Assembly: GCA_011050085.1 (NCBI GenBank)
Contig: DRGL01000070.1
Coordinates: forward strand, 1 to 54,524
Direction: 5' to 3'
Source: Pricia antarctica
GTDB lineage: Bacteria > Bacteroidota > Bacteroidia > Flavobacteriales > Flavobacteriaceae
Length of the DNA stretch: 54,524 bases
In this document: piece after piece, positions 24,727 to 45,173 of the stretch
Layout of the letters: each line of letters begins with the position of its first letter
Position numbering within the stretch: position 1 is the stretch's first letter
The notes under the pieces: generated by a model
Seen by the model: the letters and a program-made list of their open reading frames with translations, nothing else
What the model was told of the DNA's origin: nothing
Databases searched by the model: none
Made by a program: the position numbers and the translations under genes

Positions 24727-25956
24727 CTACATTTCTTTTACGTGAAAATGAATAGTCTCTAAATCTTTCCAGAAATCGGGATACGATTTAGATACTACCT
24801 CGGCATCATTTATAAACAAGGATGTTTTTAGGGCCAAAGGTGCAAATGCCATAGCCATTCTATGATCGTTGTAGGTGTCGATGGCAACCTCTTCCCTGAT
24901 GTGGGTCGAGGGTTTAAGTTGTAGACTTTTATCCGTTACCGAAATATCGGCGTTCAATTTAGTAAGTTCGGCATAAAGTGCTTCCAATCTATCGGTTTCC
25001 TTAATTTTTAGGGTATGCAAACCCGTCAATTGGCAACCAATTCCCAAGCCAAAACAAGTTACCGCAATGGTCTGCGCTATATCGGGTGCATTAGACAGGT
25101 CAAGATCTACTGACTCAAGCTGACAATCGGTAGTCTTATTTAATAGAATATGATTTTCAAAAAATCGGGTTTCTACACCAAAATTCCTATACATATCAGA
25201 GAGCACACTATCGCCCTGAAGACTATTATTCTTGTAGGCCGACAATTTTATTTCACTCCCAATAGTACTAAGGGCCATAATACTATAAAAATAGGATGCC
25301 GAACTCCAATCCGATTCTACGGTCAAAACGGTGGGGGTCACTGCGGACTTGGGCTGAACCTTGATAATATTATCTTCGAAAGAACTTTCTACTCCAATTT
25401 GAGCTAAAAGACCTAACGTCATTTCTATATAAGGTACCGATGTTATTTTACCGATCAGCTCAATTTCAAGTCCATTCTCAAGCGTTGGGGCAATCAATAA
25501 AAGCGAAGAAATATATTGACTACTAATATTGGCCGGTAGGCTTACCTGATTTTTGACCAAATGTTTTCCATGTATCCGAATCGGCGGATAGCCTTCATTT
25601 TTTTCGTAAATAATGTCCGCTCCTAAGCTACGCAGTGCTTCCACCAAAATTTTAATAGGACGTTCAGTCATGCGTTGCGAGCCAGTGAGCGTTACGTCTT
25701 TTCCTTTTTGAGATGCGAAATAGCCGGTTAAAAAACGCATAGCGGTACCGGCGTGATGAATATCAACCGTACCATTTTCGATTTGAAGGCCCTTTTCCAT
25801 GACTTCGGCATCATCGGAGTTCGATAGGTTTTCAATGGTGATTTCCGGGTAAAGTGCTCGAAGCAGTAAGGAACGGTTAGACTCGCTTTTTGATCCGGTA
25901 ATCTCGATTTGTGCCGTAATATGATTGCTTGGAGGTACTGAGAGATGTAGTTTCAA
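24727..25956 (-). CDS. aroA: 3-phosphoshikimate 1-carboxyvinyltransferase (EPSP synthase)
   Basis: Sixth step of the shikimate pathway, making EPSP from shikimate-3-phosphate and PEP. The active-site loop near the N-terminus is ITGSKSESNRSLLLRAL (about 18-34). HHAGTAMRFLTGYFA is the second signature, and KIKETDRLEALYAEL with DTYNDHRMAMAFAPLAL complete the site. 409 residues, slightly short for the family but with all motifs. The start is TTG at 25956 (KLHLSVPP); no in-frame ATG precedes it. It is the last gene of the Phe/Tyr operon, 22 bases behind the MazG-like gene. Confidence 0.95.
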   Translation of the reverse strand: MKLHLSVPPSNHITAQIEITGSKSESNRSLLLRALYPEITIENLSNSDDAEVMEKGLQIENGTVDIHHAGTAMRFLTGYFASQKGKDVTLTGSQRMTERPIKILVEALRSLGADIIYEKNEGYPPIRIHGKHLVKNQVSLPANISSQYISSLLLIAPTLENGLEIELIGKITSVPYIEMTLGLLAQIGVESSFEDNIIKVQPKSAVTPTVLTVESDWSSASYFYSIMALSTIGSEIKLSAYKNNSLQGDSVLSDMYRNFGVETRFFENHILLNKTTDCQLESVDLDLSNAPDIAQTIAVTCFGLGIGCQLTGLHTLKIKETDRLEALYAELTKLNADISVTDKSLQLKPSTHIREEVAIDTYNDHRMAMAFAPLALKTSLFINDAEVVSKSYPDFWKDLETIHFHVKEM

Positions 25957-25978: not shown

Positions 25979-26305
25979 TTATTTTAGTTTTTCGTTCATA
26001 TGGTGACGGTCATGGTCGCGTTTGGACTTAACATCCAATTTTTTAGCAAAAGCTTCTTGTAAATCGATTCCTGTTTGATTGGCAAGGCATAATACTACAA
26101 ACAGCACATCGGCCAATTCTTCGCCCAAATCTTTTTCTTTGTCCGATTCCTTTTCACTTTGTTCTCCGTAACGTCGCGCAATTATACGGGCAACTTCACC
26201 TACCTCTTCCGTAAGTTGAGCCATATTGGTAAGTTCGTTAAAATAGCGTACGCCGTGGTCTTTAATCCAATTATCTACTTCCTGCTGTGCTTTCGTTATA
26301 CTCAT
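25979..26305 (-). CDS. MazG-like nucleotide pyrophosphohydrolase
   Basis: 108-residue all-alpha NTP pyrophosphohydrolase of the MazG/iMazG type. The metal-binding pattern is visible as LTEEVGEVARII (EExxE-type, about 31-42) and LGEELADVLFVVLCLANQTGIDL (ExxD, about 61-83). A basic/His-rich tail (KRDHDRHHMNEKLK) follows. Such enzymes clear non-canonical nucleotides. The start overlaps the end of dtd by one base. Its presence in an aromatic amino-acid operon is unexplained by function. Confidence 0.88.
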   Translation of the reverse strand: MSITKAQQEVDNWIKDHGVRYFNELTNMAQLTEEVGEVARIIARRYGEQSEKESDKEKDLGEELADVLFVVLCLANQTGIDLQEAFAKKLDVKSKRDHDRHHMNEKLK

Positions 26306-26757
26306 TATTCTTTGTTCTTTGTATCCATAAGTATTGTAACCGGACCATCGTTCAGCAAATCAACTTTCATATCGGCACCAAAAATACCAACACCTACATT
26401 TTTGTTCAAATCTTTCTCCAATTGAATAATAAAATTTTCGTAAAGGGGGATAGCAACCTCTGGTTTGGCAGCCTTTATATACGATGGACGATTTCCTTTT
26501 TTGGTAGCAGCATGAAGTGTAAACTGGCTTACTACAATCGCATCACCACCAGTATCTAAAAGAGATTCGTTCATTATTCCCTGGGCATCGTTGATGATTC
26601 GAAGATTGACGATTTTTCGAGACAGCCATTCAATATCTTCTCCTCCGTCCGCATTTTCAATGCCTAATAGTATCAATAGTCCGTTACCTATTTTCGAAAC
26701 GATTTCACCATCTACGGTTACGCTTGCTCTCTTTACCCTTTGAATTACGGCTTTCAT
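26305..26757 (-). CDS. dtd: D-aminoacyl-tRNA deacylase Dtd
   Basis: Removes D-amino acids (classically D-Tyr, and glycine) from tRNAs. The 150-residue protein begins MKAVIQRVKRASVTVDGEIVSKIGNGLLILLGI, the standard Dtd start. The catalytic/specificity motif SQFTLHAATKKGNRPSY (about 78-94) and the cross-subunit Gly-cisPro-like region GVFGADMKVDLLNDGPVTI are present. Its location in a Tyr/Phe biosynthetic operon is noteworthy since D-Tyr-tRNA is a known substrate. Confidence 0.95.
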   Translation of the reverse strand: MKAVIQRVKRASVTVDGEIVSKIGNGLLILLGIENADGGEDIEWLSRKIVNLRIINDAQGIMNESLLDTGGDAIVVSQFTLHAATKKGNRPSYIKAAKPEVAIPLYENFIIQLEKDLNKNVGVGIFGADMKVDLLNDGPVTILMDTKNKE

Positions 26758-26897: not shown

Positions 26898-27848
26898 TCA
26901 TTTTTGCCCATGAACATCGATTCTATAGTTTTCATCTTCGCCAGTTACCATTTGAACATAACTGCGGTAGCGGCTCCAAGAAACTTTTTCTGCATCCAAC
27001 GCGTCTTTGACGGCACATTGCGGCTCGTTCAAATGCAGGCAATTGTTGAATTTACAATCCTCCTTGAGCAAAAAGAATTCTGGAAAATAATCTCCAATTT
27101 CTTCCTTATCCATATCCACTACCCCGAAACCTTTAATCCCTGGGGTATCGATAATACGGCCTCCGAAGCTTAAATCATACATTTCTGCAAAGGTAGTAGT
27201 ATGCTGGCCCTGCAAATGTTGTTCAGATATAGCCGCAGTCTTCAAATCCAATCCCGATTCCAACGCATTGACCAAAGTAGATTTACCGGCCCCTGAATGC
27301 CCGGCAAACATGCTGGTATTTTCCTTCATTAAATCCCTGACCTTTTCGATATTCTTACCGGTCAAGGCTGATATCCTGATGCAGGTATAGCCAATTTCGC
27401 GATACAGGGCGGCCAAAAATTTGATTTCGCCAAGCTCTTCTTCGTTATAGGTATCGATTTTATTAAACAGCAGAACGACGGGAATATCGTACGCTTCTGC
27501 GGTCGCCAAAAAACGATCGATAAACAGCGTATACGTAGTCGGATTATTGAGCGTAACCAATAGAAATACTTGATCGAGATTTGCGGCGATAATATGGGTC
27601 TGTTTTGAAAGGTTCACCGATTTCCGGATGATATAATTCTTGCGGTCTTCAATCGCCGATATGGTACCTACCTCTGCATCTCCCAATTGCTCTATCTCAA
27701 ATTCGACTACATCGCCAACAGCAATCGGGTTGGTACTTTTAATGCCTTGAATACGAAATTTACCCTTGATTCGGCATTCGATAAAACTACCGTTCCCGTT
27801 TTTCACACTGTACCAACTTCCGGTCGATTTATAGACAGTACCCTTCAT
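26898..27848 (-). CDS. rsgA: Small ribosomal subunit biogenesis GTPase RsgA
   Basis: Circularly permuted GTPase that aids 30S subunit maturation. N-terminal OB fold (about 1-75, GTVYKSTGSWYSVKNGNG ... VGDVVEFE). G motifs appear in permuted order: G4 LFNKIDTY (about 128-135), G1 GHSGAGKSTLVNAL (about 179-192), G3 DTPGIKGFGV. The C-terminal zinc site is C-X4-C-X-H type: CKFNNCLHLNEPQCAVK. Length 316 is normal. Separated from DAHP synthase by 18 bases, so in the same operon. Confidence 0.96.
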   Translation of the reverse strand: MKGTVYKSTGSWYSVKNGNGSFIECRIKGKFRIQGIKSTNPIAVGDVVEFEIEQLGDAEVGTISAIEDRKNYIIRKSVNLSKQTHIIAANLDQVFLLVTLNNPTTYTLFIDRFLATAEAYDIPVVLLFNKIDTYNEEELGEIKFLAALYREIGYTCIRISALTGKNIEKVRDLMKENTSMFAGHSGAGKSTLVNALESGLDLKTAAISEQHLQGQHTTTFAEMYDLSFGGRIIDTPGIKGFGVVDMDKEEIGDYFPEFFLLKEDCKFNNCLHLNEPQCAVKDALDAEKVSWSRYRSYVQMVTGEDENYRIDVHGQK

Positions 27849-27866: not shown

Positions 27867-28949
27867 CTATCCATTTATGACCTTTTCCTGATGGTTGATC
27901 GATTCTTGGTGAATGGCCTTAAAGAGTTTCAAAATAAATTCTTCGCTCAGACCCTTTGATTCTCCTTCTAAAATCATCGCGCCTAATATTTCGTTCCATC
28001 TGGTGGATTGTAAGACGGCAACGTTTCTTGTCTTTTTCAATGTGCCGATTCCGTCGGAAATTTTCATGCGTTTTCCCATTGTCTCGATAATCTGGTTATC
28101 CAATACATCGATCTGGGCGCGTAGGTTGCTCAATTTCGTATTGTATTCCGTTTCGGGCGAACTTTCCTTACGTATGCGCAAATCACGCATTATCTGTTTT
28201 AATCTATCGGGAGTTACTTGCTGGGCGGCGTCACTCCACGCATTGTCGGGATCGTGATGCGTTTCGATCATGAGACCATCAAAATTGAGATCCAATGCTG
28301 TTTGGGAAACGTCAAAAATCATATCCCGCTTTCCGGTAATATGCGAAGGATCGTTAATAATGGGCAAATCTGGATAACGGGTCTGTAAATCAATGGCCAC
28401 TTGCCATTCTGGAATGTTTCGGTATTTAGATTTCTCATAAGTAGAAAACCCTCTATGAATGACCCCTAACTTTTTTATGTTTGCGGTATGCAGGCGTTCA
28501 ACAGCCCCAAGCCACAATGATAAATCTGGGTTTACCGGATTTTTTATGAGCACCACCTTGTCTGTACCTTCCAAGGCATCTGCGATTTCCTGTACGATAA
28601 ATGGGCTCACGGTTGATCGAGCACCAATCCATAGCAAATCGATATCGTGCTCCAGGGCTAGCTCTACATGGGCTCGATTGGCTACCTCCGTAGCTGTCTT
28701 CATTCCCGTTTCTTTTTTGACTCTTTGTAACCATTTTAGTCCCAAAGCCCCCACACCCTCAAAATTTCCAGGTCGCGTACGTGGTTTCCAAATACCGGCG
28801 CGATAATAATTTACATCGGTATCTTTCAAACTGTTGGCGATGCCCATTACCTGTTCTTCGGTCTCCGCACTACAAGGTCCTGCGATTACCAGTGGATGGT
28901 CAAGCTTCATATCGTCTAGCCAAGACCTCATTTGTTTCGTATTTTCCAT
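27867..28949 (-). CDS. Bifunctional DAHP synthase / chorismate mutase
   Basis: Two domains. Residues about 1-260 are a DAHP synthase of the AroA-beta/KDO8P-like class (PLVIAGPCSAETEEQV, YRAGIWKPRTRPGNFEGVG, INDPSHITGKRDM, DGLMIETHHDPDNAWSDA), which makes the first shikimate intermediate from PEP and erythrose-4-phosphate. Residues about 270-355 are an AroQ-type chorismate mutase (LSNLRAQIDVLDNQIIETMGKRMKI). The fusion is common in Bacteroidetes, with the mutase domain thought to give feedback control by prephenate. It sits between tyrA and rsgA in the operon. Confidence 0.95.
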   Translation of the reverse strand: MENTKQMRSWLDDMKLDHPLVIAGPCSAETEEQVMGIANSLKDTDVNYYRAGIWKPRTRPGNFEGVGALGLKWLQRVKKETGMKTATEVANRAHVELALEHDIDLLWIGARSTVSPFIVQEIADALEGTDKVVLIKNPVNPDLSLWLGAVERLHTANIKKLGVIHRGFSTYEKSKYRNIPEWQVAIDLQTRYPDLPIINDPSHITGKRDMIFDVSQTALDLNFDGLMIETHHDPDNAWSDAAQQVTPDRLKQIMRDLRIRKESSPETEYNTKLSNLRAQIDVLDNQIIETMGKRMKISDGIGTLKKTRNVAVLQSTRWNEILGAMILEGESKGLSEEFILKLFKAIHQESINHQEKVING

Positions 28950-29066: not shown

Positions 29067-29936
29067 TTATATTTTATTCGGTTTGTTCAAAGGTATTCCT
29101 TTCAGAATTTCCCGAATCCTATTCGTGTCGTTCATTTCATTATAAATGCCTTCATAATCATCATTTTCCAGCAATTGCTTGAATTTTTGTAGGTTCTGAA
29201 TGTATTCGTTCAGAGTGTCCAAAACATTCTCCTTATTGTGCTTGAAAATGGGTGTCCACATAGCTGGCGAACTTTTAGCCAATCGTACGGTGCTCTCGAA
29301 ACCACTGCCTGCCATGTCAAAAATATCGCGTTCGTTCTTCTCTTTTTCGATAACGGTCTTTCCCAACATAAAAGCGCTAATGTGTGACAAATGCGACACA
29401 TAAGCAATGTGTTTGTCGTGCGCCTCGGGATTCATATAACTTATTCGCATGCCCATTTCCTGAAAAAGATTCAAGGCTCTTTCCTGTAATTTAAAAGCCG
29501 TTTTTTCTACTTCACAGATAATGTTCGTTTTACCTGAATATAAGTGTTCAATAGCTGCGGATGGACCAGAAAACTCAGTTCCGGCAATAGGATGGGCCGA
29601 TAGATAGTTTCTTCTTTTAGGATGGTCAGCCACTGTTTTACACACCAAGCTTTTGGTCGATCCCCCATCAAATACCACACAATCATCGCTTACGGCATCC
29701 AAAATTTTGGGAAGCGCCACGACCATAGCATCCACAGGTACCATAACGATTACCATGTCTGCGCTGCCCAGTGCGTCATAACTTGACCGTGCATCGATAA
29801 TACCCAATGCCAATGCCTCCTCCTCATGCTTTGGATTGGTATCTATACCATATATCTTAGATTCTGGGCGTAGGCGTTTAATGTCTTTTGCAAAAGAACC
29901 TCCTATTAAACCGATGCCAATGATAAAAATGTTCAT
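29067..29936 (-). CDS. tyrA: Prephenate dehydrogenase
   Basis: Converts prephenate to 4-hydroxyphenylpyruvate for tyrosine. NAD-binding motif GIGLIGGSFAKDIK at about residues 6-19, VIVMVPVDAMV, then the family motif SAHPIAGTEFSGPSAA (about 110-125) and HDKHIAYVSHLSHISAF (about 176-192) with the substrate-binding His. 289 residues with no fused mutase or ACT domain. The gene is 118 bases ahead of the DAHP synthase/mutase, which would supply its prephenate. Confidence 0.95.
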   Translation of the reverse strand: MNIFIIGIGLIGGSFAKDIKRLRPESKIYGIDTNPKHEEEALALGIIDARSSYDALGSADMVIVMVPVDAMVVALPKILDAVSDDCVVFDGGSTKSLVCKTVADHPKRRNYLSAHPIAGTEFSGPSAAIEHLYSGKTNIICEVEKTAFKLQERALNLFQEMGMRISYMNPEAHDKHIAYVSHLSHISAFMLGKTVIEKEKNERDIFDMAGSGFESTVRLAKSSPAMWTPIFKHNKENVLDTLNEYIQNLQKFKQLLENDDYEGIYNEMNDTNRIREILKGIPLNKPNKI

Positions 29937-29987: not shown

Positions 29988-31145
29988 TTAAAATCTGTCA
30001 ATTGCCTCGCGAATCTTGCCCTCGGTAACACAAAGTGAAAATCGGATGTAGCCTTCCCCGTTTTTTCCGAAAATGGTGCCTGGGGTGATGAATATATTTT
30101 TATCATATAAAATCTCATCGATAAAGGTTTCGGCGTTTTTGCTTCCTTCGGGCAACTTCGCCCAGACAAACATTCCCACGGCATTTCTATCGTACGTACA
30201 TTGCAAGCTATCGGCGAGCTCAAAAATCAGTTCCCTTCTTTTGTTATACACCGTGTTCAGTCCATCGAACCAATCCTCAGCGCTATATAAGGCCGTAATT
30301 GCCCCTTTTTGAATGCCATAGAACATTCCGGAATCCATATTACTTTTCACTTTAAGTACAGCTTCTAGATATTCTTTGTTTCCTAAGACCATTCCTACGC
30401 GCCATCCTGCCATATTAAAAGTTTTGCTCAAGGAATTAAGCTCTAAAGCAACTTCCTTTGCACCATCAACGGACAAAATACTCTTTGGAGACGAATTGAG
30501 GACAAAACTATAAGGGTTATCGTTGATCAATAAAATACCGTTCTTTTTGGCAAAGGCAATCAAATTTTCAAACTGTTCGGTACTGGCGGTTGCTCCGGTA
30601 GGCATATGCGGATAACCGACCCACATAATCTTTACCTTTGATAGGTCTTGTTGCTGAAGTGCCTTCAAATCAGGAAACCAGCCATTATGCTCCGATAAAT
30701 TATAATACCTGGGTATGGCACCCACCAATTTCGTTACCGATGTGTAGGTAGGATAACCCGGATCTGGAATCAAAGCTTCGTCACCTGGGTTAAGAAAGGC
30801 CAAGCTGATATGCATGATACCCTCTTTAGAACCCATCAACGGTAATATTTCATTCGCAGGATTTGCGTCAACGGAAAATTTACTCTTATAGAATGTTGAG
30901 ATGGCTTCCCGTAATTCAGGAAGGCCTTGATAGCTCTGGTATTGGTGTGCACCATTATCAAGCACGGCATTTTGAATGCTTTCTAAAATACTTTTTGCAG
31001 GTGCCAGATCAGGGCTACCGATGCCCATGTTGATGATTGGCCTGCCTTCTGCCATAAGACCGCGAACTTCCCGTAGCTTCTTTGAAAAGTAATATTCCTC
31101 GACGGTCTGTAACCTTTCTGCCGTTTTAATTTTAGAAACTGTCAT
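29988..31145 (-). CDS. PLP-dependent class I/II aminotransferase (probable aromatic/prephenate aminotransferase)
   Basis: 385-residue fold-type I aminotransferase. The PLP-binding Lys lies in SLSKTFNMAGWRVG (about 237-250), with YPTYTSVTKLVGA, PHMPTGATAS and NDNPYSF also typical. N-terminal INMGIGSPDLAP and C-terminal FITPGTIFGKNGEGYIRFSLC fit the aspartate/aromatic aminotransferase group. Its start overlaps the pheA stop (ATGA) and it lies ahead of tyrA, so the last transamination to Phe or Tyr is the likely role. A DAP-aminotransferase-like role cannot be ruled out by sequence alone. Confidence 0.9.
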   Translation of the reverse strand: MTVSKIKTAERLQTVEEYYFSKKLREVRGLMAEGRPIINMGIGSPDLAPAKSILESIQNAVLDNGAHQYQSYQGLPELREAISTFYKSKFSVDANPANEILPLMGSKEGIMHISLAFLNPGDEALIPDPGYPTYTSVTKLVGAIPRYYNLSEHNGWFPDLKALQQQDLSKVKIMWVGYPHMPTGATASTEQFENLIAFAKKNGILLINDNPYSFVLNSSPKSILSVDGAKEVALELNSLSKTFNMAGWRVGMVLGNKEYLEAVLKVKSNMDSGMFYGIQKGAITALYSAEDWFDGLNTVYNKRRELIFELADSLQCTYDRNAVGMFVWAKLPEGSKNAETFIDEILYDKNIFITPGTIFGKNGEGYIRFSLCVTEGKIREAIDRF

Positions 31146-31990
31146 AACCTTACGTTTTTATATTCGCCCAAAAGGGTAAAGTCTTCCGACATGATATCCA
31201 ACAGGACTTTTGCCTTTTCAAAATGGCCATATTCCTCAAAAGTAACATCGACAAAAAACGCATATTTCCAAGGTTTCTCAATAATAGGTAACGACTGTAT
31301 CTTGGTCAAGTTCAGATTGCAATCGCTCATAACATTAAGTATTGCGGCCAAACTTCCTCGTTTATGGTCGGTCACAAAACGTACGGACGCCTTTGTGATA
31401 TGATTATTGGCAATCAACTTTTCGCCCTCGTCGATGGATAATTGTTTTGTACTTACAATGATAAAGCGGGTCGCGTTATTTTTTATAGTCTGAATACGTT
31501 CCGCTACGATGTCCAAATCATAAAGTACTGCAGCCACATTTGGAGCAATGGCTGCAATATGTCTTAATTGCTGATTTTGTATACGCTTGGCAGTTTCGGC
31601 CGTATCCACATCCTCGACCAATTTAATATTTGGATAATCGCGAAAAAATTCTTTGCATTGTAGCAAGGCCATAGGATGTGAACGTACTTCTTGGATATCA
31701 GCAATTGTTTGCCCCTTTAACACCATCAAATTGTGGTTGATGTTGAGGTAATGTTCTCCAATAATTTGCAGATCGTTGTGATATATTAAAGCATAGTTGG
31801 GAATAATAGATCCAGCAATGGAATTTTCTATGGCCATTACGCCTAGGTCGGCCTTCTTATCTAAAAGTCGGTCAACCAAGTAATCGAATGACATACTTTC
31901 AACCAAATCGGTGTCTTCGCCGAAATATTCAAGCGCCACTTGATGATGGTTAGAACCTCTTATACCTTGTATGGCTATTCTTTTTTTCAT
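31142..31990 (-). CDS. pheA: Prephenate dehydratase with C-terminal ACT domain
   Basis: Makes phenylpyruvate from prephenate. 282 residues from the ATG at 31990 (MKKRIAIQGIRGSNHHQVAL). The catalytic domain covers about 1-180, with GVMAIENSIAGSI and the NATRFIIVS motif containing the catalytic Thr. A C-terminal ACT domain (about 195-280, GSLAAILNVMSDCNLNLTKIQSLPI) normally mediates feedback inhibition by Phe. First gene of the operon and directly downstream of the leader peptide/attenuator. There is no fused chorismate mutase; that activity is in the DAHP synthase gene. Confidence 0.95.
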   Translation of the reverse strand: MKKRIAIQGIRGSNHHQVALEYFGEDTDLVESMSFDYLVDRLLDKKADLGVMAIENSIAGSIIPNYALIYHNDLQIIGEHYLNINHNLMVLKGQTIADIQEVRSHPMALLQCKEFFRDYPNIKLVEDVDTAETAKRIQNQQLRHIAAIAPNVAAVLYDLDIVAERIQTIKNNATRFIIVSTKQLSIDEGEKLIANNHITKASVRFVTDHKRGSLAAILNVMSDCNLNLTKIQSLPIIEKPWKYAFFVDVTFEEYGHFEKAKVLLDIMSEDFTLLGEYKNVRL

Positions 31991-32087: not shown

Positions 32088-32117
32088 AAAAAAAAAGTCC
32101 CGCTTTCGGCGGGACTT
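32088..32117 (-). terminator. Attenuator terminator of the Phe/Tyr operon
   Basis: On the minus strand AGTCCCGC and GCGGGACT pair around a CGAAA loop (extended by an A-T pair) and are followed by a run of at least eight T. It lies about 100 bases before pheA, inside the operon leader, so it can abort transcription before the structural genes. Its first arm can also pair with an identical GCGGGACT copy at 32149-32156 in the leader peptide, which would prevent termination. Confidence 0.88.
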
Positions 32118-32141
32118 CAATTGTCTATATGTTCGAATATA

Positions 32142-32213
32142 TCACAACAGTCCCGCTTCTCTTTTAAAAAAGAAGTAAAAATAGAAACCGTTGTAAAAAG
32201 ATTGTGTTGACAT
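32142..32213 (-). CDS. Leader peptide rich in Phe and Tyr (attenuation of the pheA operon)
   Basis: A 23-codon open frame from ATG (32213) to TGA (32142), too short for usual gene finding. After MSTQS it reads FYNGFYFYFFF and ends KREAGLL. Nine of eleven consecutive residues are Phe (6) or Tyr (3). It sits 25 bases before the attenuator terminator and upstream of genes that make exactly these two amino acids. Its last codons (GAA GCG GGA CTG) contain GCGGGACT, the same sequence as the 3' arm of the terminator. A ribosome stalled on Phe/Tyr codons would free this copy to pair with the terminator's 5' arm; one that finishes would cover it. This is the pheL/trpL logic. Confidence 0.88.
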   Translation of the reverse strand: MSTQSFYNGFYFYFFFKREAGLL

Positions 32214-32659
32214 TATTATCTTAAACTTACGCTAAAGTAATAATTTTATTTAAAAAACAAATTATTTGGATAATTTTTTTTGGCTACCCTGCTAATTAGA
32301 TAGCTATTTTGAATACGTTAACTTTGAGCTATAATTAAAAAATTAGACTGATGTAATGACCACAATTCAAAATTGGAATCAGAAAAAGGATTTAGTATAC
32401 TCGGCATTTAAAAGTTTTATACAAAGGCCGTTATAAATTCGATAGAATCACAGCTTAAAATTGATAGGAGAGTGAATAAACTGGTTTGCATGTATTTTAA
32501 GCCATATTTTGGATAAGTGTTCAGAGTTGAGAACCAACTTTTTTTAAAACCATTACAATTTAAAAATAATGACTTCAAAAGGCGAACCCTTCTGAACGGT
32601 TACAATATGAATGTTGCCGAACTTACCCATCTCAAAATTAAACTACAAGTCAAATAGAT
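32214..32659. other. Divergent intergenic region between the leader peptide and the GldA-like gene
   Basis: About 446 very AT-rich bases. The left end carries the predicted promoter of the Phe/Tyr leader. The rest has no open frame with protein character; it should hold the promoter of the GldA-like gene, which I could not pinpoint. Confidence 0.6.
32232..32261 (-). promoter_or_regulatory. Predicted promoter of the Phe/Tyr operon leader
   Basis: The minus strand has TTTG at 32261-32258, an 18-base spacer, and TACTTTAG at 32239-32232, matching TAnnTTTG at all but one informative position. It would start RNA a few bases before the leader ATG at 32213, giving a short leader as in classical attenuators. 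Confidence 0.55.
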
Positions 32660-33553
32660 ATGCCGATATCCGTCCAGAATATCACGAAATCTTTCGGTAA
32701 CCTTAACGTACTTCAAAATATATCCTTTGAATTGGGAAAAGGAGAAATAGTTGGATTATTAGGACTAAGCGGGTCTGGCAAGTCCACCCTAATGAAGATA
32801 TTGGCGAAGAGTCTTCAGGCCGATTTAGGGGAAGCCAGTATCAATGGATGCGACCTGCGGACCGAGAAACAGAATGTTCAAGAAAACATAGGATACCTTC
32901 CAGAGCACGAAAACTTAGATGTAAACATCTCTATAAAAGAATATCTCACCTTTACATTGGACGTAGATAAAACAATTGAAAGTCGTATTGCAGCAGTCAT
33001 TGAACAAACTGAATTGAGCCCTGTAATCGATACTAAAATCGGACAATTATCCAAAATTTATCGGCAACGTCTAGGCTTAGCAAGAGCGCTTTTGAACGAC
33101 CCCGCTGTACTACTACTGGACGAACCTACCAAAGGCCTCGATTTTAATCAACAACTAGAAATCAGAAAACTCATTCGTATAATCAGTAAAGAAAAGACCA
33201 TACTGCTTTCGACTTCTATCATTCAAGAGGTCAAAGCCATCTGTGACCGCGTACTTATTCTTAAAGATGGAATTTTGGTCGCCGACAAAACCCTTTCTCA
33301 CTTACAAGATAATCAAGAGCAGATTATAGAGGTTGAATTCGATTATCGGGTAGAAAAGGTTTTTCTCAATCAACTGGAATACGCGACCCATGTTAAAAAC
33401 TTGGCCGGGTTTTTATATGAAATCACTTTTCATACTTCAAAAGATATGAGACCCACAGTTTTTGATTTTGCGCATGATAACAGTCTCAAAATACTACAGC
33501 TTAGCAGAAAGAACACTAGTTTAGAACACTTATTTGCTGAGTTGACAGCATGA
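32660..33553 (+). CDS. gldA: GldA-like ABC transporter ATP-binding protein with degenerate motifs
   Basis: 297 residues, the length and layout of GldA, the ATPase of the flavobacterial gliding ABC transporter: ATPase domain (about 1-215) and a C-terminal GldA-type extension (about 225-297). Walker A is GLSGSGKST (35-43), where GPNGAGKST is usual. Walker B LLLDEPTKGLD (151-161) is intact. The signature reads QLSKIYRQR (129-137), with Ile133 where Gly is normal, and the H-loop reads LSTSIIQEV, with Ser186 in place of the switch His. It may be a slow or structural ATPase, or a diverged paralogue. No gldF/gldG permease is adjacent. Confidence 0.82.
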   Translation: MPISVQNITKSFGNLNVLQNISFELGKGEIVGLLGLSGSGKSTLMKILAKSLQADLGEASINGCDLRTEKQNVQENIGYLPEHENLDVNISIKEYLTFTLDVDKTIESRIAAVIEQTELSPVIDTKIGQLSKIYRQRLGLARALLNDPAVLLLDEPTKGLDFNQQLEIRKLIRIISKEKTILLSTSIIQEVKAICDRVLILKDGILVADKTLSHLQDNQEQIIEVEFDYRVEKVFLNQLEYATHVKNLAGFLYEITFHTSKDMRPTVFDFAHDNSLKILQLSRKNTSLEHLFAELTA

Positions 33554-45024: not shown

Positions 45025-45026
45025 TG

Positions 45027-45147
45027 GTTATCTGTCACGCCGTAACATGATAGAATGTAGCACCTTCTTAAATCCCGAAGGTTATTCGGTCAATTAAGGG
45101 TTGCCAAGGTTTCGCAGGGTCTAGTCCCTCCACCTTTCTCGATAACG
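45027..45147 (-). promoter_or_regulatory. SAM-I (S-box) riboswitch of the methionine operon
   Basis: On the minus strand the core is GTTATC...AAAGGTGGAGGGACTAG, ACCCTGCGAAACCTTGGCAACC, a variable P3 arm (AACCTTCGGGATT), AAGGTGCTAC and a closing GATAAC. These are the conserved parts of the S-box aptamer: the P1 arms GTTATC and GATAAC pair, and the GGTGGAGGGACT, GAAACC and GGTGCTA junctions are nearly canonical. It lies 95 bases before the homocysteine half of metH, consistent with repression of methionine synthesis when SAM is high. Confidence 0.95.
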
Positions 45148-45173
45148 TTTCAAATTTAGATATGAACTGACTA

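Follow-up and report, generated by a model that had tools for sequence, protein, structure and literature searches.

Transcription attenuation by translated leader peptides is a textbook mechanism, and for pheA it is exemplified by pheL of Enterobacteria, a Phe-rich leader that is combined with an antiterminator and a terminator before the gene. A single leader can also contain codons for several end products, as is the case for thrL and ilvL of Escherichia coli. A comparative study of attenuators by Vitreschak and colleagues from 2004 is said to have covered the Bacteroidetes/Chlorobi group. According to the accessible text of a survey from 2010, no leader-peptide system had, to the knowledge of its authors, been shown outside the Proteobacteria and Actinobacteria, the atypical ermC aside (PMC2965389). 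For the Bacteroidetes, the available part of PMC2864571 lists Bacteroid-trp (RF01692) as a leader-peptide family, which has Trp codons, belongs to the trp operon and in this respect is unlike the pheA leaders presented here. In a transcript map of Bacteroides thetaiotaomicron, long 5′ UTRs were noted to contain short frames reminiscent of the leader peptides of attenuation systems; the example given in the available part is a hypothetical gene rather than pheA, and validation of the frames is stated to be necessary (PMC7366714). In Flavobacterium psychrophilum, excerpts of a study from 2021 report a structured 5′ element at pheA that is conserved in other genera and has no match in Rfam, together with "strong clues" that amino-acid operons are subject to attenuation by leader peptides (PMC9723704). 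This element is very probably the same as the one analyzed here. In these excerpts, neither codon content nor a mixed Phe/Tyr/Trp readout or a spread beyond the family is addressed (PMC9723704). The accessible portion of PMC4833913 contains nothing on pheA, and the open-licence literature, covered at the level of titles and abstract openings, yielded no report in which pheA of Bacteroidota is preceded by a mixed Phe/Tyr leader. An initial sequence-only reading of the locus had stated that no description of such a leader was known; within that literature this holds for the mixed Phe/Tyr leader, but a structured 5′ element at pheA and clues for leader peptides had already been published.

The window, i.e., the whole stretch of 54,524 nucleotides that was analyzed, contains the leader region on the minus strand upstream of pheA (Table 1). 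Its family, the Flavobacteriaceae, and its class, the Bacteroidia, were inferred from named relatives. Direct reading of the minus strand confirmed the frame, the terminator and the duplicated arm of the sequence-only reading along with their positions. The leader frame begins with an ATG (32213-32211), ends with a TGA (32144-32142) and specifies Phe or Tyr at nine of its 23 codons, namely 6, 7 and 10-16. No other frame in the window that is 15-40 codons long reaches 8/11 consecutive aromatic codons, and 20 dinucleotide shuffles of the window contained no frame at 9/11 and one at 8/11. In the terminator scan, positions 32118-32094 form a stem of ten pairs, six of them G-C, and the T run that follows ends at 32088, 97 nt 5′ of pheA, which starts with the ATG at 31990.

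Table 1. Features of the leader region and the adjoining genes. Positions refer to the window; leader-region features are predicted
Feature	Position	Strand	Basis or remark
GldA-like neighbor gene, upstream of the leader	32660-33553	+	
Putative promoter, -33 element TTTG, Bacteroidetes type	32258-32261	-	TTTG-N18-TAnnTTTG-like match
Putative promoter, -7 element TACTTTAG	32232-32239	-	one mismatch to TAnnTTTG
Leader peptide frame, 23 codons and stop, MSTQSFYNGFYFYFFFKREAGLL	32142-32213	-	read directly; kept in relatives
Arm 1	32184-32196	-	pairs with 32154-32142 (1:2 helix) in the full-length minimum-energy fold
Arm 2, antiterminator 5′ arm, GCGGGACT	32149-32156	-	within leader codons 20-22
Arm 3, common to antiterminator and terminator, AGTCCCGC	32109-32116	-	
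Arm 4, terminator 3′ arm, second copy of GCGGGACT	32096-32103	-	
Intrinsic terminator hairpin and T run	32088-32118	-	sequence only
pheA, prephenate dehydratase, 282 aa, first operon gene	31142-31990	-	NF008865, 180.5 bits, below cut-off 219
PLP-dependent aminotransferase	29988-31145	-	best NCBIfam match 410.1 bits, below cut-off 507
tyrA, prephenate dehydrogenase	29067-29936	-	NF006307, 390.8 bits, above cut-off 295
DAHP synthase fused to chorismate mutase	27867-28949	-	NF009239, 187.7 bits, below cut-off 279
rsgA GTPase, distal	26898-27848	-	TIGR00157, 216.2 bits, above cut-off
dtd-like gene	26305-26757	-	named by eye from the translation
MazG-like pyrophosphohydrolase	25979-26305	-	named by eye
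aroA, EPSP synthase, distal	24727-25956	-	TIGR01356, 290.7 bits, above cut-off

Position 32261, which the sequence-only reading had set as the upper limit of the region, is the first base of a match to TTTG and TAnnTTTG, which we take to be the Bacteroidetes promoter consensus. The two elements of this candidate promoter are separated by 18 nt, and the match ends another 18 nt before the leader ATG. When up to one mismatch was allowed per element, such a match was present in 86 of the 129 distinct upstream stretches, as opposed to 27.2 expected from base-shuffled stretches, the distance from the end of the match to the leader ATG being 16-19 nt in 56 of these 86. The base at position -3 of the leader start is an A in 88 of 129 cases. 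As stated in the available part of PMC6847099, an A at -3 is favorable in Flavobacterium johnsoniae, and mRNAs in this group are devoid of Shine-Dalgarno sequences.

Conservation was assessed at 149 pheA loci (110 plus 39, the window locus L001 included), at which the upstream DNA was read. A pheA gene had been found in 70 of 99 relatives, and a collection of species genomes provided 202 confirmed pheA stretches, of which 80 loci were kept. The set of 39 comprises all but two of the 41 relative matches without a locus, G082 (internal stops) and G094 (a weak second match) being left out. The locus sets overlap in species, and the number of distinct leader regions is 129. By one automatic rule, an aromatic frame and a terminator occur together at 136 of the 149 loci; the Phe/Tyr-rich frame and the duplicated arm, whose retention in relatives had been proposed as a check, are indeed kept. 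Among the 13 loci missed by the rule, L029 is cut by a contig end, L018 has a terminator at about -545, which would place the leader beyond the 600 nt read, L124 has a leader but the rule chose another frame, and L135 has a leader but no scored terminator. No leader was found upstream of pheA at L119, L127, L133, L142, L143, L146, L147, L148 and L149; the genomes containing L142 and L143 measure about 0.6 Mb, and the loci L146-L149 belong to one family whose pheA shows about 30% identity.

A control test was passed by all 80 pheA upstream regions of close relatives and by none of 1866 other 630-nt stretches, which were taken from the same loci (L031-L110) with the leaders left out. The leader element before pheA is, as these figures show, no chance occurrence. 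An earlier control had given 12 matches in 1390 windows, all 12 of them in L191-L228, where leaders were still unmasked. We also built a covariance model, R1, from 87 leaders, a subset of the 129 distinct regions that was picked for diversity and includes that of the window. At E 0.001 and counted per genome, not singly by position at pheA, the model matches 351 of 397 genomes and 216 of 237 genera of the family, some of the scanned genomes having supplied training sequences. Nearly all of these genomes have one match, while G051, G307 and G472 have two, and the window's own genome contains one strong copy (E 2.6e-15) next to four others at E 0.34-0.68. The remaining 46 family genomes have no R1 match at E 0.001; G026 and G038, in which pheA lacks a leader (L119 and L127, respectively), are also without an R1 match. 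The view that such a leader is unusual in a flavobacterium had to be abandoned in the face of the 351 matching genomes, and a putative Trp leader is present in the window's own genome as well (see below).

Spread beyond the family was judged for those genomes in which pheA was detected, in the class sample a minority of 40 out of 149. We read 29 new class-sample loci, three within the window's family and 26 outside; nine further pheA matches remained unread and a tenth (in G063) is L147, which had already been counted. A frame with at least 7/12 aromatic codons is present at 17 of the 29 loci (14 of the 26 outside the family), and 15 of the 17 frames are also accompanied by a terminator according to a strict rule. 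A weaker aromatic frame was seen at L162, L168 and L178, and no aromatic frame was detected at nine of the 29 loci. The phylum sample contains a pheA match in 102 of 118 genomes, most of them unread. Of the 18 further loci read, seven belong to the family, four more to the class and seven to neither. An aromatic frame is present at 13 of them, 12 of which have a close terminator and one, L241, only a distant one. Two loci from outside the class, L236 and L239, have the aromatic frame, and five others from outside the class, L242-L246, have no detectable aromatic leader. At L179, two aromatic leaders are arranged in series at distances of about 280 and 120 nt from pheA, with the frames MAYRSAYYFYFFCFFSSCRG and MNCMGYTYYYFFSLMDHRRLWVV and a terminator of its own behind each; judged from its sequence, this pair is a possible tandem attenuator.

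All 136 leaders with a terminator contain codons for both Phe and Tyr, and 86 of them, the window leader not being among these, additionally contain a Trp codon. The presence of this codon varies while close operons are alike, so that it does not seem to follow operon content. The Phe-plus-Tyr codon set of the sequence-only reading is therefore general, but the set is often wider and includes Trp. Phe, Tyr and Trp account for 27, 14 and 3% of leader codons, respectively, versus 3.5, 3.2 and 0.9% of those for the eight operon proteins. Of the 17 class-sample frames, all contain Phe and Tyr and four contain Trp. Within the aromatic block, single-base codon differences among 71 distinct sequences are synonymous in 3930 and non-synonymous in 1967 cases, the compared pairs not being independent of each other. 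This coding constraint bears on the explanation that the frame merely arose from T-rich DNA and that the hairpin marks where an upstream transcript stops or terminates transcription constitutively. The sequence is indeed rich in T, and terminator-like matches are no commoner than in shuffles (eight sites in the whole 8.2 kb region versus a shuffle mean of 7.6). Nevertheless, the frame is constrained as a coding sequence, the control stretches are free of such elements and the GldA-like upstream neighbor is encoded on the other strand, so that this explanation is hardly credible.

The distribution of Phe and Tyr codons also argues against a plain pheL-like leader by which only Phe would be sensed, with the Tyr codons being passengers one base away from Phe codons. 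Phe codons are about twice as frequent as Tyr codons, pheA is the first gene, and a Tyr-for-Phe swap is found at position 11 in 12 of the 83 leaders that have 23 codons. On the other hand, Tyr occupies position 5 in 76 and position 13 likewise in 76 of these 83 leaders, it is never absent from the terminator leaders or the class-sample frames, and tyrA follows in the gene row at 78 of 80 close loci. We therefore regard sensing of Phe alone as unlikely. Position 7 of the 83 leaders is more variable and is occupied by Trp (51), Tyr (21, the state in the window), Phe (9) or Asn (2). In the same set the motif F-Y-F-Y-F-F-F is strongly conserved, as would be expected if the leader were a nascent-chain arrest peptide that answered a small molecule and for which codon supply was not the signal. 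In known arrest peptides the order of residues matters, unlike in the aromatic leaders: the wider samples retain aromatic content, but Phe, Tyr and Trp follow one another in no fixed order. Kept composition with free order speaks for codon supply and against a sequence-specific arrest peptide, which we consider very unlikely.

Judging from the sequences, arms 2, 3 and 4 change together between lineages. For the terminator, 98.2% of alignment cells are paired and double changes occur at all seven pairs. For the antiterminator, the mixed alignment of 87 sequences gave 76.2% paired cells, a value reached by 87 of 500 shuffles; we think that this low value is caused by a one-column displacement of arm 2 in Flavobacterium-like rows. 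A clade alignment of 71 sequences gave 97.4%, which none of 500 shuffles reached, with only three antiterminator cells, at two of seven pairs, changed on both sides. In a comparison that needed no alignment, 108 of 124 distinct cases showed a better fit of arm 2 to the arm 3 of the same leader than to that of other leaders. With arms grouped into 27 classes, none of 20000 label permutations, a procedure that ignores kinship, reached the observed mean, and for three of the classes the own arm was a poorer match than foreign arms were on average. A shuffle test at individual loci yielded p <=0.05 in 108 and p <=0.01 in 68 of 136 cases. The 1:2 structure (21 pairs) has 78.7% paired cells, more than in any of 500 shuffles, and its number of pairs changed on both sides was reached in 103 of 500. 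At a number of mostly Maribacter-like loci (L044, L045, L047, L048, L052-L054, L056, L057, L063, L080 and L091), arm 3 now reads AGTTCCG and arm 4 has followed, while arm 2 is still CGGGACT and pairs via G-U; there, perfect matching of the terminator has been preserved at the expense of the antiterminator.

The leader of 156 nt folds with -39.5 kcal/mol (z -4.2), and none of 200 shuffles folded as well. For a fragment starting at 32162, just before arm 2, the minimum-energy fold is the antiterminator (z -2.15, 8 of 200 shuffles as good) and the ensemble centroid is the terminator. Ribosomes were modelled as covering 16 nt behind the A-site codon and 12 nt beyond it, a footprint that we assumed. 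With the ribosome stalled at the penultimate aromatic codon of the block, nascent RNA extending to arm 4 has an antiterminator probability above 0.5 in 131 of 136 leaders. The same holds for 3 of 136 with the ribosome at the stop codon, and without a ribosome the antiterminator (2:3) is favored at this probability in 86 of 136. Going by this last number, a result of the model, the ribosome at the stop codon may be more important for termination than a protector helix. In full-length RNA at equilibrium the terminator is preferred in 129 of 136 leaders even with the ribosome stalled, and the switch must therefore be kinetic.

A terminator plus an alternative helix in a structured leader would also fit a metabolite- or tRNA-binding RNA, i.e., a riboswitch or T-box, that acts in place of the ribosome. 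However, no Rfam family, riboswitch or T-box matches the leader at gathering thresholds, the only such match in the window being a SAM riboswitch elsewhere. Moreover, the conserved positions of the leader are mostly codons and arms, and the best among the weak Rfam matches is Phe_leader (RF01859), so that we judge a ligand-binding RNA to be highly improbable. The Phe_leader match is full-length and on the correct strand (30.8 bits, E 0.18). In the four pheA loci searched, the gathering threshold of 55 bits for RF01859 was not reached (L001, 30.8; L038, 29.7; L165, 26.5; L173, no match), and at L165 a MicC match on the other strand (27.4 bits) outranks it. The SAM riboswitch is located at 45025-45148 on the minus strand (RF00162, 66.5 bits), and the genes below it (44962-43928 and 43650-40879) look by eye like a split methionine synthase.

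Conserved frame, coevolving arms and modelled folding together support the ribosome-mediated attenuation proposed by the sequence-only reading, and we are confident that the leader is a transcription attenuator of this type that reads out Phe and Tyr, often joined by Trp in relatives, in the manner of an OR gate. RNA polymerase would start roughly a dozen nt before the leader, and a ribosome would follow and translate the 23 codons. When both amino acids are plentiful, the ribosome should reach the stop codon and cover arm 2, which lies a few nt upstream of it; arm 3 would then pair with arm 4, the terminator would form and transcription would end before pheA. When charged tRNA-Phe or tRNA-Tyr is short, the ribosome is expected to stall in the aromatic block (codons 6-16), leaving arm 2 free to pair with arm 3 while arm 4 has yet to be transcribed. 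With the antiterminator in place, the polymerase would continue into pheA and the genes for the aminotransferase, tyrA and DAHP synthase/chorismate mutase. The leader would thus act as an OR gate on shortage of Phe and Tyr, and on shortage of all three aromatic amino acids where it has a Trp codon.

The genes that would be governed by this gate were compared at the 80 close loci L031-L110, for which up to about 6 kb downstream were covered. At all 80, pheA is followed by the aminotransferase gene, then by tyrA at 78 and then by the DAHP synthase gene at 77; the three close loci with a shorter row have less than 5.5 kb of downstream DNA covered. In the window, the C terminus of the DAHP synthase fusion gave separate matches to chorismate mutase models. 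A row that continues through to aroA is visible at seven of the 80 loci within the about 6 kb covered at most, and in the window a gap of 140 nt precedes the dtd-like gene. With seven such rows within the covered DNA, control beyond DAHP synthase, including that of rsgA and aroA, is therefore something that we infer and predict. The original proposal that the whole pheA-aroA operon is controlled thus gains support for its conserved core from pheA to DAHP synthase/chorismate mutase (77 of 80) but not in the same way for its reach to aroA. At L219 (in G026), pheA lacks the other seven operon genes in the 8.3 kb downstream and is not preceded by an aromatic leader or terminator, i.e., operon and leader are missing together.

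Another putative leader resides in the same genome as the window. On contig 49 (L185, about 1309-1422), a Trp leader (MIKSNIQTWWWNNFRQAS) with a hairpin was recognized by eye before a trpE homologue. This leader, which has the codons TGG TGG TGG, is a weak match to RF01692 (39 bits, E 0.26, gathering threshold 49). RF01692 gave no match at E <=5 at the four pheA loci L001, L038, L165 and L173. The terminator scan found no terminator at two ilvD homologues.

The leaders described here differ from pheL in that Tyr and often Trp codons are added to those for Phe and that they stand before a joint row of genes for Phe and Tyr synthesis and DAHP synthase. They share their multivalent nature with thrL and ilvL, which respond to other amino acids at other operons. 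The kind of mechanism is already known, and what is new is mostly the mixed aromatic codon set, the coevolution of the arms and the occurrence outside the family. As a tentative extension, for which the odds are clearly against us, one leader shared by several families of the class may read all three aromatic amino acids, gate entry into the pathway via the co-operonic DAHP synthase and do so without a strong protector helix. If this were true, blocking leader translation would raise expression of the operon. This would be the reverse of trpL, where blocked leader translation lowers operon expression. The leader alignment could serve as the basis for an Rfam family. The analysis suggests that a single leader integrates more than one end product of a branched pathway, and it offers a concrete, testable mode of control for the whole Phe/Tyr branch in widespread but little studied bacteria.
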